From Desulfuromonas sp. (GTDB taxonomy: Bacteria; Desulfobacterota; Desulfuromonadia; Desulfuromonadales; Geopsychrobacteraceae): a stretch of DNA of 53,386 nt. A program made the position numbers and the translations under genes. The stretch lies in the NCBI GenBank assembly GCA_002868865.1, contig PKUC01000085.1:1-53386 (forward strand), given 5' to 3'. Numbering within the stretch: the first letter of the stretch is position 1; every line of letters begins with the position of its first letter. Shown one piece after another: positions 1 through 34,061 of the stretch. The notes beneath the pieces were generated by a model, which worked only from the letters and a program-made list of their open reading frames with translations, had not been told where the DNA came from and searched no databases.

Positions 1-522
1 GACCGTCATCATCACCGCTTCGGTATCAGTCAAACTGCCATCGCTAACAGTAAAGGTGACGGTGTAGGTTCCGGCCTGTGCCGTGGTCGGTGTCCAGGAG
101 AAGACACGGGCCGCTGCATCAAAGCTCGCACCGCTCGGCAGGTTCGCCGCGCTGTAGGACAAACTGTCACCATCGGCATCGGTGGCGCTGATTGTAAACT
201 GCAAGGTGCTTCCATCTGCGACTGACTGTGCACCGATCAACGCAAGTACCGGGGCGAGGTTCAGATCAGTGACCGTAATTTCAACCGCTTCGGTGTCGGT
301 CAAACTGCCATCGCTGACAGTGAAGGTAACGGTATAGGTTCCAACCTGTGCCGCGGTCGGTGTCCAGGAAAAAGCACGGGACCCAGCACTGAAACTCGCA
401 CCGCTCGGCAGGTTCGCCGCGCTGTAGGTCAAACTGTCGCCATCGGCATCGGTGGCGCTGACGGTAAATTGCAGACTGTTTCCTTCTGCGGCAGATTGAG
501 GGCCGATCGACGCCAAAATGGG
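1..522 (-). repeat. Tandem 270-bp (90-residue) Ig-module repeats
   Basis: Two in-frame copies are offset by exactly 270 bp: the decamer CAAACTGCCA is at 31-40 and again at 301-310, with long flanking identity. The protein modules are almost identical, which suggests recent duplication. More copies may lie beyond the left edge. Confidence 0.85.
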
Positions 523-879
523 CGCCTTGTTCACCTGAACGGCAACAGGCGAACTGGTCATAATGTTTGAATACCCACTCTCGACGCCAGCCTCGGTGTA
601 GGCCGTAACCGCCAAGCGGTGGGTCTGATCGCTCGGCAATCCGGTTAATACCGTGTTCAGAGACAGACCGACATCGATCGGCGAGCCCCCCTCATTGGCC
701 CCGCTTCCGACGAGCGGAAGCCCTGAGTCGCCAGCATCATAATAGACCTTATAACCGGCAATATCGGCTGCGGAACCTGCGCTCCACGACAGGGTAACGG
801 TCTTCGCTTCAGCGATAGAAACAATCGCAAACAGAAAAAGAAGCACACAGAAAATTTTCGTTGAAATATTTTGACCCAT
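1..879 (-). CDS. Secreted Ig-like repeat protein, C-terminus beyond the window
   Basis: The frame is open from an ATG at 879 to the left edge, so about 293 residues are visible and the C-terminus is missing. A GGAG-type ribosome site (GTAGGAGAAAACTG) precedes the ATG. Residues 1-25 form a signal peptide (hydrophobic core VLLFLFAIVSIAEA). Next is a fibronectin-III-like module of about 90 residues (TVTLSW, AGYKVYYD, HRLAVTAYT), then two nearly identical 90-residue Ig/cadherin-like modules (LQFT-SATDADGD, NLPSGASF, GTYTVTFTVSDGSLTD). Such modules are typical of exported surface or matrix proteins; no enzymatic domain is visible. It is the first gene after two tandem cyclic-dinucleotide riboswitches, so its expression is probably set by c-di-GMP and it may act in attachment or biofilm. 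That role is inferred. Confidence 0.85.
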   Translation of the reverse strand, partial: MGQNISTKIFCVLLFLFAIVSIAEAKTVTLSWSAGSAADIAGYKVYYDAGDSGLPLVGSGANEGGSPIDVGLSLNTVLTGLPSDQTHRLAVTAYTEAGVESGYSNIMTSSPVAVQVNKAPILASIGPQSAAEGNSLQFTVSATDADGDSLTYSAANLPSGASFSAGSRAFSWTPTAAQVGTYTVTFTVSDGSLTDTEAVEITVTDLNLAPVLALIGAQSVADGSTLQFTISATDADGDSLSYSAANLPSGASFDAAARVFSWTPTTAQAGTYTVTFTVSDGSLTDTEAVMMTV

Positions 880-1008: not shown

Positions 1009-1096
1009 ACTCTCTTCGGCAACCCGGCTATCCTCTAAACAGAGGACCCGTGGCTTTGCGTCGCCAGATCGCTCTGGCTTTGCCCTTATCGGAGAC
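1009..1096 (-). ncRNA. GEMM-I cyclic-dinucleotide riboswitch, gene-proximal copy
   Basis: The minus strand carries the GEMM-I core: AGGGCAAA, a P1b hairpin GCCAGA/UCUGGC closed by a GCGA tetraloop, GACGCAAAGCCACGGGUC, a second hairpin (CCUCU/AGAGG) and GCCGGGUUGCCGA. The base aligned with ligand-contacting G20 of the V. cholerae Vc2 aptamer is the middle G of GGG. That fits c-di-GMP and not the A20 of cGAMP-type GEMM-Ib RNAs; the alignment is from memory. A terminator follows, so ligand probably controls readthrough into the secreted protein. Confidence 0.9.
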
Positions 1097-1251: not shown

Positions 1252-1339
1252 ACTCTCTTCGGCAACCCGGCTATCCCCTAAACAGAGGACCCGTGGCTTT
1301 GCGTCGCCAGATTACTCTGGCTTTGCCCTTATCGGAGAC
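1252..1339 (-). ncRNA. GEMM-I cyclic-dinucleotide riboswitch, distal copy
   Basis: This second aptamer is almost identical to the one at 1009-1096 and offset by exactly 243 bp: the same AGGGCAAA, GACGCAAAGCCACGGGUC and GCCGGGUUGCCGA segments, with a few changes in hairpin loops. It is the first of the two to be transcribed. Two aptamer-terminator units in series usually steepen or widen the dose response, or make leak-through lower. Confidence 0.9.
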
Positions 1340-3383: not shown

Positions 3384-5219
3384 CTACAGCTTAGAGGTAT
3401 CGCGAACCGCACCACGGTCTGCGCTGGTCGCCATGGAGGCATAGACCTTCAGAGCGGCGCTGACCTCGCGATCCCGCTCCAGGGGGATCCAGCCTTTCTC
3501 TTCCTGGACCTGACGACGGCTCTCCAGCACCTGCGCATCGACGACAACGGAGATAGCGCGGTTGGGGATATCGATATCGATCGTGTCACCATCCTGCACC
3601 AGTCCGATAATACCGCCGCTCGCCGCTTCCGGAGAAACGTGGCCGATCGACAGGCCCGAGGTCCCTCCAGAGAACCGGCCGTCGGTCACCAGAGCACACA
3701 CCTTGCCAAGCCCTTTCGACTTCAGGTACGAGGTCGGATAGAGCATCTCCTGCATACCCGGTCCACCCTTGGGGCCTTCGTAGCGGATCACAACCACATC
3801 TCCCGCCTGAATCTGATCATTCAGGATCGCATCAACCGCGGCATCCTGACTTTCAAAGACGCGGGCCGGGCCTGAAAATTTCAGGATCGACTCATCGACT
3901 CCGGCGGTTTTTACGATACAGCCATCCTCCGCCAGATTTCCTGACAGCACGGCCAACCCGCCATCGAGGCTGAAAGCGTTATCACGACTGCGGATGCAAC
4001 CCGCTGCCCGGTCCAGATCGGGCTCGTCCCAATAACGGGACTGGCTGAACGGCTCCAGCGTCGCGACGCCTCCAGGAGCTGCGAGGTAACGTTTTTTTGC
4101 CACTTCGGTCGGATTCCCGGCGATATCCCATTCGGCGATAGCGGCACCGATGGTCTCGGCATGAACCGTCAGCGCCTCTGTTTCAATCAGTCCGGCACGC
4201 ATCAGCTCTCCAAGAATACCGATAACGCCACCGGCATGATGGACATCCTCCATATGGTAATCGGGGGTTGACGGCGCAACCTTGCAGAGGTTTGGCACCT
4301 TACGCGACAACACGTCGATATGCTCCATGGTAAAATCGACCCCGGCCTCCTGGGCCGCAGCAAGCAGGTGAAGGACCGTGTTGGTCGACCCCCCCATGGC
4401 AATATCGAGGGTCATGGCATTGCAAAATGCCGCAGCGGTAGCGATGCTGCGCGGGCGATAGCGCTCTTCGCCCTGTTCATAACAACTCTTTGCGATCTCG
4501 ACGATGCGACGGCCCGCCTCCAGAAACAGGGATTTACGCTCGGCATGGGTCGCCAGCAGAGATCCATTCCCGGGAAGACTCATCCCCAGTGCCTCGGTCA
4601 GGCAGTTCATCGAATTGGCGGTAAACATCCCCGAGCAGGAGCCGCAGGTCGGACACGCCGAGCGTTCGACTTCGTCGCAGGTCGCGTTATCGACCGTATC
4701 ATCGGCCGCCATCACCATGGCATCGACCAGATCGAGGCCCTTCTCTTTGCCATCAACGATAATCTTGCCCGCCTCCATCGGCCCGCCGGACACAAAGATC
4801 GTCGGGATATTCAGTCGCAGCGACGCATTGAGCATTCCGGGGGTAATCTTGTCGCAGTTGGAAATACACACCAGCGCATCAACACAGTGTGCATTGGCCA
4901 TATACTCGACCGAATCGGCGATCAGCTCCCGCGATGGCAACGAATAGAGCATACCGCCGTGCCCCATGGCGATGCCGTCGCAGATAGCGATGGTATTGAA
5001 TTCCTTGGCGATGCCACCGGCCTGCTCAATTTCACGGCAGACCAGTTGGCCAAGATCTTTCAGATGAACGTGGCCGGGAACAAACTGGGTAAATGAATTG
5101 ACAACACCGATAATCGGCTTGCCAAAGTCCTTGCCTTCAACTCCGGTGGCGCGCCACAAAGAACGAGCACCGGCCATTTTCCGCCCCTCGGTGGAGGTAG
5201 CTGAACGATAAGCTGTCAT
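3384..5219 (-). CDS. ilvD: Dihydroxy-acid dehydratase
   Basis: 611 residues, full length for IlvD. It dehydrates 2,3-dihydroxy-isovalerate and -methylvalerate to the 2-keto acids of valine and isoleucine synthesis in the cytosol. The Fe-S ligand motifs [11 protein letters not shown] and [19 protein letters not shown] are intact, and the C-terminal [15 protein letters not shown] segment is the IlvD/Edd signature. The ATG at 5219 follows AGGAC. The gene stands alone between its own terminator and the GGDEF pair; no ilvBNC genes are in the window. No T-box or attenuator was seen upstream. Confidence 0.96.
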
Positions 5220-5256: not shown

Positions 5257-6351
5257 TTACGAAGACGGATTGCCTGCGCGGTCCGGAGTTTCTGGTGCGG
5301 GTAAGTCAAACGCGGTCAAAACAGCATTTCGGGTACTCTTTTTGACTGCATACATCGCCATATCTGCCAGGCGAATCAATTCCGATTTATCGGGCGCATT
5401 GGTTGGATAGGTCGCCACCCCGATACTGGCGGTGACCTCTATCTTCTGATCACAGTCGGAACGATAATCGCCCTGCCGAAAGCGCTCGCGCAGATTGCGG
5501 ATCATCCCCAGAGCCCCTTCGTTACCGGTCCCGGGAAGGAGTATAACAAATTCATCGCCACCGTAGCGGGCCGCATAATCGACCTTGCGCGTGTTCTTGC
5601 CGATGGTCTGACCGATTTCACTCAGCAGCCTGCTACCAGTCAGATGACCATAGGTATCGTTGACCTGCTTAAAGTGATCCAGATCGAGAAACACCAGACT
5701 GACCTCTGTGCCCTGCCGTCCGGCACGTTCGACCTCATAGTCGATAATCGTCTGAAAATGACGCGAATTGTACAGGCCGGTGAGGTCATCGGTAATTGTC
5801 AACTCCTGAACCCGTTCAACCAGCCGCGCGTTCTCGATGGCGATCGCGGTAAAGTCGGCAATAGCCGACAGCACCCGCAGGTCGCGGGGCTCAAACTGGT
5901 CCTGTCCGAGGGCGTTGAGAAGTTGAATCACACCTAGAGTCTTGTCGTGTGTCTTCAGTGGCACGCAGATGATCGAACTGGTGACGAAGCCGACACTCTC
6001 ATCGATTTTGCCGCAGAAACGTTCGTCCTGACGAACATCAGCCACCAGCAGTGGTTCACCCGACTCCGCGACAAAACCGGCGATCCCCTGCCCCGGCGGC
6101 AACCGTATCCCTTTAAGCTTATCTGCAACCGGCGACACAGCGATCTCAAAACAGAGCTCACGGCTGTCCTGATCGAGAATTAACAGCGACCACGCAGATG
6201 GATTAAGCAGAGAACTAACCTTATCCATCGTGGTCTGAAAAACCTCTTCGAGGGACAAACGTGAGGTCAACGCCTTGCCGACATCGACAAGCGCTTTCAG
6301 TTCCTGTTCGAGCCTGTTTTCCCCGACCTCGTCGAAATGCATATCCTTCAC
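5257..6351 (-). CDS. GAF-GGDEF protein with Ser at the guanine-reading position (candidate Hypr cGAMP synthase)
   Basis: 364 residues. A GAF domain spans about residues 25-180 (TSSIICVPLKTHDKTLGVIQLLN) and a GGDEF domain about 195-350. The catalytic loop RYGGDEF and a product-inhibition I-site (RKVD, five residues before GGDEF) are present. In place of the aspartate in GHxxGD (PleD D344) it reads GHLTGS. Serine here is the hallmark of hybrid-promiscuous (Hypr) enzymes such as Geobacter GacA, which make 3',3'-cGAMP as well as c-di-GMP. The start is a GTG overlapping the upstream stop (GTGA), with GGAGGG 6 nt before it, so translation is coupled to the paralogue upstream. The GAF domain probably senses a small ligand. 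Product is inferred. Confidence 0.88.
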   Translation of the reverse strand: MKDMHFDEVGENRLEQELKALVDVGKALTSRLSLEEVFQTTMDKVSSLLNPSAWSLLILDQDSRELCFEIAVSPVADKLKGIRLPPGQGIAGFVAESGEPLLVADVRQDERFCGKIDESVGFVTSSIICVPLKTHDKTLGVIQLLNALGQDQFEPRDLRVLSAIADFTAIAIENARLVERVQELTITDDLTGLYNSRHFQTIIDYEVERAGRQGTEVSLVFLDLDHFKQVNDTYGHLTGSRLLSEIGQTIGKNTRKVDYAARYGGDEFVILLPGTGNEGALGMIRNLRERFRQGDYRSDCDQKIEVTASIGVATYPTNAPDKSELIRLADMAMYAVKKSTRNAVLTAFDLPAPETPDRAGNPSS

Positions 6352-7448
6352 CGGTCGCCCTCCCCCTGTGAGCCTGTTTCCTGTTCAGCGCCGCGCATCA
6401 GGTCGAACGCTGTCTTCACTCCATCCCGCGTCGACTGCTTGACCGCATACATCGCCTTGTCGGCACGAACCACCAGGGTCTTTTTATCGGGCGCGTTGGT
6501 CGGATAGGTGGCAATCCCGACGCTGATGGTCACATCGATCTTCTCACCGGTCTCCGAACGAAAATCGGCGTTCCGGATCTTATCCCTGAGGTTGTTAATC
6601 ATCCCCAGAGCACCGGCGTTGCCGGTGTCGGGCAGCAGAACGACAAATTCGTCGCCGCCGTAACGAGCGACGTGGTCAACCAGCCTCTTATTTGTCTTTA
6701 TGGTCTGTGCAAGCCCGCGCAACAGCACATTCCCTGTTTCGTGGCCATAAGTATCATTGACGGTCTTGAAGTGATCCAAATCGATAAACACGAGGCTGAG
6801 TTCGGTCCGCTGGCGGCAAGCCCGCTCCACCTCATAATCGAGGACCTTCTGAAAATGCCGCGCGTTGTACACGCCGGTCAGATCGTCGATAATCGTCAAT
6901 TCCTTGACCTGATCGACGAGGCGTGAGTTTTCGATTGCGATCGCGGTAAAGTCAGCAACCGTCGATAAAATCGTCAGATCATCAACCGTAAAGGGGCGTT
7001 GACCAAGCACATTGACGAGTTGCACAACGCCGATCACCTTATTCTGCGTCTTAAGGGGCACACAGATGATCGAACTGGTTTCGAAACCGACCTCTTCGTC
7101 AATTTTTTTTGAGAAGCGCTCATCCTTGCTGACATCGGGTACCAGCAGCGCTTCACCGTGGCTGGCGACATAACCGGAAATCCCCTCATCCATGGGAATT
7201 TTCAGCGTCTTCAGCTTGTCCGCCACCGACGAAACGGCAATATCAAACCGTAACTCGTGGGTCGTTTCGTCAACGATCATCAGTGACCAGGACGAGGGTT
7301 TCAGCAGCTGGCTGACCTTCTCCATGGTGACCTGATAAATTTCATCCAGTGACAGCTGCGGTGATAACGCCTTGCCGATATCGACCAGCGTCTTCAACTG
7401 CTGGGTGCTGTTCCCTCCAGCGGAATCGATCACATCCTGCTCACTCAC
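6348..7448 (-). CDS. GAF-GGDEF protein with Asn at the guanine-reading position
   Basis: 366 residues from a GTG at 7448, chosen because GGAGG lies 7 nt upstream; the frame extends to an ATG at 7502 without an equal site. GAF (TSSIICVPLKTQNKVIGVVQLVN) then GGDEF, colinear with and clearly paralogous to the next gene. RYGGDEF is intact and RLVD forms an I-site. The specificity position reads GHETGN, Asn instead of the usual Asp. This residue is neither the canonical c-di-GMP type nor the Hypr Ser, so the product could be c-di-GMP, cGAMP or c-di-AMP, or the protein could partner with its paralogue. It overlaps that gene by 4 nt, and the two were probably made by tandem duplication. Confidence 0.87.
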   Translation of the reverse strand: MSEQDVIDSAGGNSTQQLKTLVDIGKALSPQLSLDEIYQVTMEKVSQLLKPSSWSLMIVDETTHELRFDIAVSSVADKLKTLKIPMDEGISGYVASHGEALLVPDVSKDERFSKKIDEEVGFETSSIICVPLKTQNKVIGVVQLVNVLGQRPFTVDDLTILSTVADFTAIAIENSRLVDQVKELTIIDDLTGVYNARHFQKVLDYEVERACRQRTELSLVFIDLDHFKTVNDTYGHETGNVLLRGLAQTIKTNKRLVDHVARYGGDEFVVLLPDTGNAGALGMINNLRDKIRNADFRSETGEKIDVTISVGIATYPTNAPDKKTLVVRADKAMYAVKQSTRDGVKTAFDLMRGAEQETGSQGEGDR

Positions 7449-7551
7449 AGTACAACCTCCATCATCCCTGAAAGACTTCATGCCACGGACCGCTGCAGGC
7501 ATCGGCCAGTCAAAAAGCCTTCACACATCTACATGTGTACTAAGCGTGACC

Positions 7552-8733
7552 CTACAAGCCGATTTCGCGGGCCAGATCCTTCCAGGCCGGCAGACTGCGC
7601 TCGATCAGATCGTTATCCGTACAATACGCGATACGGAAATAGCCCGGGGTCCCGAAACCGGCGCCCGGAACCAGCAGAATTCGGTGTTTCTGCGCCAGAC
7701 GGACAAACTCGACATCATCTTTCAGGGGCGACTGCGGAAACAGATAAAAGCCGCCCCCCGGTTTCACCATTGAGAAACCGAGAGAGGTCAGGTTGTCATA
7801 AAGCAGGTCGCGCTTGTAACGATACTCGTCGATATCGACACTGCTGCGCTGTAAACCAGCCACAAGGCGCTGCATCAGCGCCGGTGCATTGACGAAACCG
7901 AGTACACGGTTGCAGAAAATCGCCCCCTGCATAAACAATTCGACATCGGGCATCTGCGGACTGGCGACCAGATAACCGATCCGTTCACCGGGCAGCGCCA
8001 AATCCTTGGAATGGGAGGTAACGATAACCGCATTGTCGATCGCATCAAAAACATGCGGGACAGGTTCTTCAAAACTGATCCGAGCGTAGGGTTCGTCGGC
8101 GATCACCGTAATCGGGCGACCGAACTGTTTCTCTTTGCTCTTCAGCAGGACATTGAGGGCCTCAAGGGTCTGCCGCGGGTAGATGACCCCGGTGGGGTTG
8201 TTCGGCGAATTGATGATCAGGGCCCGGGTGCTCTCAGTAATTGCGGCATCGATGGCGTTCAGGTCGGGCTGAAAATGCTCATCTGTGGCCACCGTCACCG
8301 CGACGCCCCCCTGATTGTCGATATAGAACTTATATTCGACAAAGAACGGGGCCAGAATCAGCACCTCATCGCCGGGATTCAGGAGAGTTTTCAACACCAC
8401 GTTCAGAGCAGCACCGGCCCCGCAGGTCATGACAACCAGCCCTGCTCCGACAGTGTGACGACACCCGTCGGACACCACCTCGGCAACAGCCGCGCGGGTT
8501 TCATCATAGCCCGCGTTGTTCATGTAACGATGCATCCCCGGAACCGGCTGTTCCGCCAATTGCCGCAGCGCGGACAAAAACTCCTGCGGCGGTTCCATGG
8601 TCGGATTTCCCAAGGAAAAATCGAAGACGTTCTCAGCACCATACTGCTGACGCAGTGCGGCCCCCTCTTCGAACATTTTACGAATCCAGGACGCACTCTC
8701 TATACACTCAGTGACTTTACGGGAAATCGACAT
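7552..8733 (-). CDS. Class I/II pyridoxal-phosphate aminotransferase
   Basis: 393 residues. The ATG at 8733 is preferred over 8742 because GAAGGA abuts the earlier ATG but lies 9 nt before this one. Fold-type I features: the NNPTGV substrate loop, DEPYARI (PLP-ring aspartate) and SHSKDLALPGERIGYL with the Schiff-base lysine. Members of this aspartate-aminotransferase-like group transfer amino groups between amino and keto acids; the substrate cannot be read from sequence. It is divergent from pheA across a 277-nt gap, which would suit an aromatic or general aminotransferase, but this is only context. Confidence 0.88.
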   Translation of the reverse strand: MSISRKVTECIESASWIRKMFEEGAALRQQYGAENVFDFSLGNPTMEPPQEFLSALRQLAEQPVPGMHRYMNNAGYDETRAAVAEVVSDGCRHTVGAGLVVMTCGAGAALNVVLKTLLNPGDEVLILAPFFVEYKFYIDNQGGVAVTVATDEHFQPDLNAIDAAITESTRALIINSPNNPTGVIYPRQTLEALNVLLKSKEKQFGRPITVIADEPYARISFEEPVPHVFDAIDNAVIVTSHSKDLALPGERIGYLVASPQMPDVELFMQGAIFCNRVLGFVNAPALMQRLVAGLQRSSVDIDEYRYKRDLLYDNLTSLGFSMVKPGGGFYLFPQSPLKDDVEFVRLAQKHRILLVPGAGFGTPGYFRIAYCTDNDLIERSLPAWKDLAREIGL

Positions 8734-9010
8734 CGGCACCATTCCTTCGATCCACAGACCGCGAAGCGGCCCGGCACATGAAACCTACGTTAAAAAGTGG
8801 GCAAGTTTACCCTCTGCAGGGCGCCGCGGTCAAGCCGCGGCACGATTGCCATCCCAACCAGCCAAAGCGTTCCCCACCGTCGTTTTCGATCCGCCGAAAC
8901 TCCGATCTATCGACATCGAAATTCTCTACTATGCTGCGGGGTGAAAATTGATTTTTGCACTGAGGTGGGTTACATTCGCTGATCTTCTTTCCGCACCAGG
9001 AGACGTTCCA

Positions 9011-33835: not shown

Positions 33836-34061
33836 CAAACGCACAGATCAGACTCTCTGCCCTGCAGGTGAGGTCAGAACGTCCACGCGGAATATTTTGT
33901 CATTCGGGAATCCTTCAACGACCCTGTGAGCCAGCCCACCCCGGAGTGGGACGCCTGATGAGTCGACAGGGGCTCCCACCTATCTGGTACTCGTAGTGAG
34001 GCCCAAGATCCACGGCCGCGGTGGAGAGTCGTAAGAGCAAAGGCACCCCAGGGTGCCTTTT
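33836..34061 (+). ncRNA. ssrS: Structured small RNA, probably 6S RNA
   Basis: There is no coding frame, but the stretch has a strong promoter and a terminator. A closing stem GACTCTC (33851-33857) / GAGAGTC (34024-34030) delimits about 180 nt, the 6S RNA length. Inside, CCCTGT (33922-33927) pairs with ACAGGG (33966-33971) around an apical CCCAC/GTGGG hairpin (33935-33950). A long rod with internal bubbles is the 6S plan, in which the central bubble mimics an open promoter and holds sigma-70 RNA polymerase. The fold was done by eye and sequence identity to known 6S RNAs was not checked; another structured RNA is possible. Confidence 0.6.
34039..34061 (+). terminator. Terminator of the small RNA
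   Basis: AAAGGCACCC (34039-34048) and GGGTGCCTTT (34051-34060) form a perfect stem with a two-nucleotide gap, followed by TTG. It lies 9 nt after the closing stem and 60 nt before the TraB start. Confidence 0.85.

Follow-up and report, generated by a model that had tools for sequence, protein, structure and literature searches.

The stretch of DNA analysed here, which we call the window, is a contig of 53,386 nucleotides from Desulfuromonas sp. and carries on its minus strand two adjacent and intact genes for GAF-GGDEF proteins. The upstream gene (6348..7448, minus strand) encodes the N copy, a protein of 366 amino acids when read from the GTG at 7448, with Asn at the base-reading position; the downstream gene (5257..6351, minus strand) also starts with GTG and encodes the S copy, of 364 amino acids, with a Hypr-type Ser at this position. 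The longest reading frame of the N copy spans 6348..7502 (minus strand) and begins with the ATG at 7502, but the GTG at 7448 is the more likely start because a GGAGG lies just 5' of it and because the length then matches that of the S copy. The TGA stop of the N copy and the GTG start of the S copy share the four nucleotides GTGA (6348..6351, minus strand), an overlap which suggests that translation of the two copies may be coupled. Pfam recognized in both proteins a GAF domain (1.5e-20 and 5.7e-20) and a GGDEF domain (5e-44 and 2e-43), so that the tandem arrangement, the overlap and the separate GAF domain of each protein, all proposed in a preliminary description of this DNA, were borne out by the reading frames, the domain search and the GTGA sequence itself. 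The pair is separated by short gaps from an aminotransferase gene upstream (7552..8742) and from ilvD downstream (3384..5219), both on the same strand, and terminator-like sites occurred around the pair no more often than shuffled sequence would give. Farther along the window, Rfam placed a 6S RNA at 33851-34031 on the plus strand (76.5 bits).

AlphaFold models of the S and N copies (mean pLDDT of 83 and 80, respectively) share a nearly identical layout of secondary structure, the modelled arrangement of the domains being unreliable because the pTM is about 0.5. The GAF domains of both models match the cAMP-bound GAF domain of Lcd1 from Leptospira (PDB 5w10), and for their GGDEF domains the matches include GacA. 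The cAMP-activated Lcd1 has the same GAF-GGDEF plan; its GAF domain is 39.5% identical to that of the S copy, with a fold TM of 0.81-0.84 on the target. Lcd1 is described as a producer of c-di-GMP (PMC8846402), and the likeness of the S and N GAF domains to it is one of sequence and fold alone.

Base-reading and cross-dimer residues

The best sequence match in the PDB for both GGDEF domains was GacA (GSU1658 / Gmet_1914; PDB 6d9m, and 5VS9 in PMC6456294), the entry 6d9m being a T4-lysozyme fusion of a Geobacter GGDEF domain, that of G. metallireducens GacA according to PMC6456294. The residues were mapped onto this structure at 44% identity across the GGDEF domain. In the phmmer search against the PDB, the segments GHLTGS of the S copy and GHETGN of the N copy aligned to GHLVGS of 6d9m, which contains Ser348, and GHETGN aligned also to GHEIGD of DgcR. 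These alignments place Ser240 of the S copy (codon AGC, 5632..5634, minus strand) and Asn240 of the N copy (codon AAT, 6729..6731, minus strand) at the column of GacA Ser348 and PleD D344, as the preliminary description had proposed; its further claim that both proteins keep RYGGDEF and an RxxD I-site (RKVD and RLVD) held on alignment as well. Both copies also retain the columns of the Mg-binding Asp, the general-base Glu, Asn335, the Lys and the I-site Arg, as is required of an active cyclase.

The choice of base has a second published determinant. The active site of GGDEF dimers is formed across both subunits, and in 94% of predicted diguanylate cyclases an Arg reaches across the dimer, at the column occupied by Tyr304 in GmGacA (PMC6456294). 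Natural Hypr enzymes with Tyr, Ser, Ala or Gln at 304 produce mostly cGAMP and those with Arg more c-di-GMP, while the Y304R mutation of GacA moves its product toward c-di-GMP (PMC6456294). By alignment to the column defined in that work, the Arg is replaced in both copies, by Ser196 in the S copy (5764..5766, minus strand) and by Ala196 in the N copy (6861..6863, minus strand). The S copy thus combines Ser at the D344 column, within the published Ser/Thr marker of Hypr enzymes, with a GGDEF rather than a GGEEF motif, an Asp required by Ser enzymes in the "Goldilocks" model (PMC6456294), and with a replaced cross-dimer Arg, which is an associated rather than a strictly defining feature. Ser alone does not guarantee cGAMP synthesis, since a D-to-S mutant of GSU3350 remained a diguanylate cyclase (PMC6456294).

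The S copy therefore resembles GacA in its base-reading Ser, its GGDEF with Asp, its RxxD motif and its non-Arg residue across the dimer. The domain make-up differs, since GacA begins with a Rec domain (PMC6456294) and both copies carry GAF instead, and the N copy differs in addition by its Asn. Bdellovibrio Bd0367 is another Hypr GGDEF protein with the Ser marker (S214), and it makes cGAMP and c-di-GMP (PMC9140294); the description of it that was consulted names no tandem Asn paralogue. Because Asn240 is neither Ser nor Thr, we did not file the N copy as Hypr; such an activity may still be present, for although its Asn lies outside the published marker, the rest of its family has Ser throughout and its own cross-dimer Arg is replaced.

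The Ser family and its genomic setting

Relatives of the S copy were found in 12 of 41 near genomes and, across the class, in 96 of 277, and a search of the order with the N copy as query found the family of the pair in 53 of 136 genomes. All 52 distinct orthologues read from the order have Ser at column 348, and at column 304 they present Ser (14), Ala (17), Gly (20) or Thr (1) and never Arg. Such retention argues that the Ser at the D344 column is not there by chance. Only the source genome, among the 96 carriers, has two copies, and the other genome of the same genus had no member of the family at the threshold used. The comparison of 20 regions revealed no conserved operon or neighbour of the Ser family, and the neighbours seen in the window were absent there. 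The pair had been put forward as a candidate cGAMP (Hypr) signalling module: the evidence backs the Hypr assignment of the Ser copy well, but it does not support a conserved module, given the single genome with two copies, neighbours that vary and nearest riboswitches of c-di-GMP type.

The source genome gave 24 matches in the GGDEF search, two of which (L022 and L024) were left out of the Asp/Ser classification. Its readable Asp-type proteins have Arg at the 304 column in 17 of 18 cases and His in the remaining one. The counterpart of GacA in this genome is a different gene, L021 (G000:C6:4493-5863, minus strand), which encodes a Rec-GGDEF protein whose base-reading residue is Ser and whose cross-dimer residue is His. 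All 41 relatives have a member of its family, so that a GacA-like protein looks core to this group and the GAF type accessory, the Ser itself being read in L021 alone.

Five GEMM-I riboswitches were found in the genome. In these elements, position G20 of Vc2 contributes to the choice between cyclic dinucleotides (PMC9262584), and a G20A mutant binds cGAMP (PMC6274999). Two lie in tandem in the window (1257..1336 and 1014..1093, both minus strand), upstream of an Ig-like-repeat protein (1..879, minus strand) that is truncated where the contig stops. Both have G20, A47 and C92 and are thus of c-di-GMP type, which rules out the simple reading that they sense cGAMP; their best Rfam model is c-di-GMP-I-UAU, although its U20 and U92 are absent. 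Each of them is followed by a hairpin with a run of T. The riboswitches on contigs C73 and C61 also have G20. The fifth (L034 1501-1592; G000:C91:33095-33186, plus strand) precedes a Calx-beta-repeat protein and has A20, a predicted cGAMP-type form which was also read at eight loci of relatives. The genome is thus predicted to hold output elements for both cGAMP and c-di-GMP, neither of them tied to the N/S pair.

Taken together, the equivalent of Ser348, the GGDEF with Asp, the non-Arg residue across the dimer, the conserved family and the presence in the genome of a GacA-like protein and an A20 riboswitch make the S copy very probably a Hypr synthase of cGAMP and c-di-GMP. To our knowledge, no product has been measured for any GAF-GGDEF Ser enzyme of this family.

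Divergence of the N copy and possible roles of the pair

The maximum-likelihood tree grouped the N copy, the S copy and the single gene of genome G003 with a support of 99; at 62, the support is too low to place the N/S split before or after the divergence of the G003 gene. The N branch (0.63) is about three times longer than the S branch (0.20), and relative to the G003 gene 59 residues are unique to the N copy and 25 to the S copy. The two copies are 65% identical, with NG86 values of 0.27 for dN and 2.05 for dS, the ratio of which is indicative only because dS is saturated. This saturation (dS of about 2), next to a dN of 0.27, makes the N copy look both old and constrained. At 11 columns with a conservation of at least 95% among orthologues it has a deviating residue, and the S copy deviates at none. 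Five of the 11 fall within the GGDEF domain or immediately ahead of it (187, 193, 240, 245 and 247) and the others in the GAF part; 240, 245 and 247 fall in the substrate helix and include E245G and G247A. By its sequence, then, the N copy stems from an old tandem duplication, evolves fast, is under constraint and has intact catalytic residues.

From the anatomy of the locus, the residue columns, the orthology, the duplication, the constraint and the rates of the paralogues, which were read directly, we infer activity, products, ligands, coupling and oligomeric state in the explanation that we prefer, with a probability of about 0.55: the S copy would be a GAF-regulated Hypr enzyme and the N copy a co-translated duplicate, active but with an altered purine preference. 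The S copy would homodimerize, and each of its half-sites would accept GTP or ATP, as its base-reading residue is Ser in place of Asp and the dimer is not spanned by an Arg; it would make cGAMP together with c-di-GMP, and its RxxD I-site would provide feedback. The N copy, derived from the same enzyme by an old tandem duplication and presumably co-translated with the S copy, would have kept the catalytic residues while its base-reading Ser became Asn and nearby helix and GAF positions changed. It would most likely be an active cyclase with a relaxed or shifted purine preference, respond to a different GAF input and feed the same pool of cyclic dinucleotide as the S copy. Counting against this explanation are the D-to-S mutant of GSU3350 that stayed a diguanylate cyclase, the possibly Asp-like pocket of Asn-type proteins and the G20 of the riboswitches nearest to the pair, those in the window.

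The long branch of the N copy, the loss of an otherwise invariant Ser and the E245G and G247A changes would also fit a regulatory partner of little or no activity that has drifted since the duplication. We consider such a loss of function rather unlikely, since the Mg-binding Asp, the general-base Glu, the Lys, Asn335 and the I-site columns are all retained, the frame has stayed open at a low dN/dS in a gene old enough for dS to be saturated, and Asn-type GGDEF domains with full motifs are widespread.

An obligate or preferred N-S heterodimer, in which Asn would favour one purine and Ser the other, giving cGAMP with little c-di-GMP or c-di-AMP, seems to us quite improbable. The genes overlap, the proteins are 65% identical, the active site is shared over the dimer (PMC6456294), and Asn could chemically pair with adenine or guanine by an amide flip; the linker helix, 80% identical between the copies, makes a mixed dimer possible. 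Against this, the S copy and its G003 orthologue show the same linker identity, so that the helix is no better conserved within the pair than outside it and the figure is not evidence for pairing, and the orthologues elsewhere are single genes, which makes the homodimer the likely ancestral state. That both copies are diguanylate cyclases making c-di-GMP alone, with Ser and Asn as neutral variation, would agree with the G20 of the nearest riboswitches and with the GSU3350 mutant (PMC6456294) but is also quite improbable given the Ser of the 52 orthologues, all non-Arg304, and the Arg304 of 17 of the 18 Asp-type paralogues in the same genome.

Asn-type GGDEF domains in other genomes

A pattern scan of GTDB for GH..GN and GGDEF at the usual spacing returned at least 120 stretches from many phyla, which rules out that Asn at the base-reading column is unique to the N copy. 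Among the matches listed, Arg304 was absent from 77 of 118 alignable Asn-types versus 5 of 35 Asp-types, almost every one of which came from a genome of the Asn set (Fisher p = 7e-8), and from 45 of 76 Asn-types after dereplication at 50% identity. The 395 genomes of the phylum gave 8 Asn-GGDEF and 40 Asn-GGEEF matches; Arg304 was absent from 37 of the 38 Asn-types fetched versus 8 of 30 Asp-types (p = 3e-10) and, once dereplicated, from 14 of 15 versus 7 of 27 (p = 5e-5), an association that concerns pattern-selected sequences of one spacing and part of which may reflect shared ancestry.

At the level of these motifs, Asn is like Ser in that the cross-dimer Arg tends to be missing alongside it and like Asp in tolerating GGEEF, so that a residue Ser-like in every respect is ruled out. 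As Asn has the length of Asp and, unlike Ser, goes mostly with GGEEF (40 versus 8), the geometry of its pocket may be Asp-like, while its strong co-occurrence with the loss of Arg304 means that it may mark a further specificity class. A bolder proposal, which we regard as unlikely, is that natural GGDEF enzymes with Asn prefer other purines and form a substrate class of their own, the third besides Asp (GTP only) and Ser/Thr (Hypr), that the N copy arose within it from a Ser enzyme by tandem duplication, and that the N and S copies may act as a mixed dimer. Neither a tested Asn variant at D344 nor product data for one were found in the open-access literature. The pair offers a natural Ser-to-Asn comparison in otherwise similar proteins and hence a good test of substrate choice, and it depends on the base-choice residues of GGDEF proteins how widely cGAMP or further dinucleotides are used by bacteria in addition to c-di-GMP. 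The association of Asn with loss of the Arg suggests that some GGDEF proteins likely annotated as diguanylate cyclases may have an altered specificity; at this motif spacing, such Asn proteins make up roughly 2% in the phylum (48 matches in 395 genomes versus about 339 Asp-type matches in 59).
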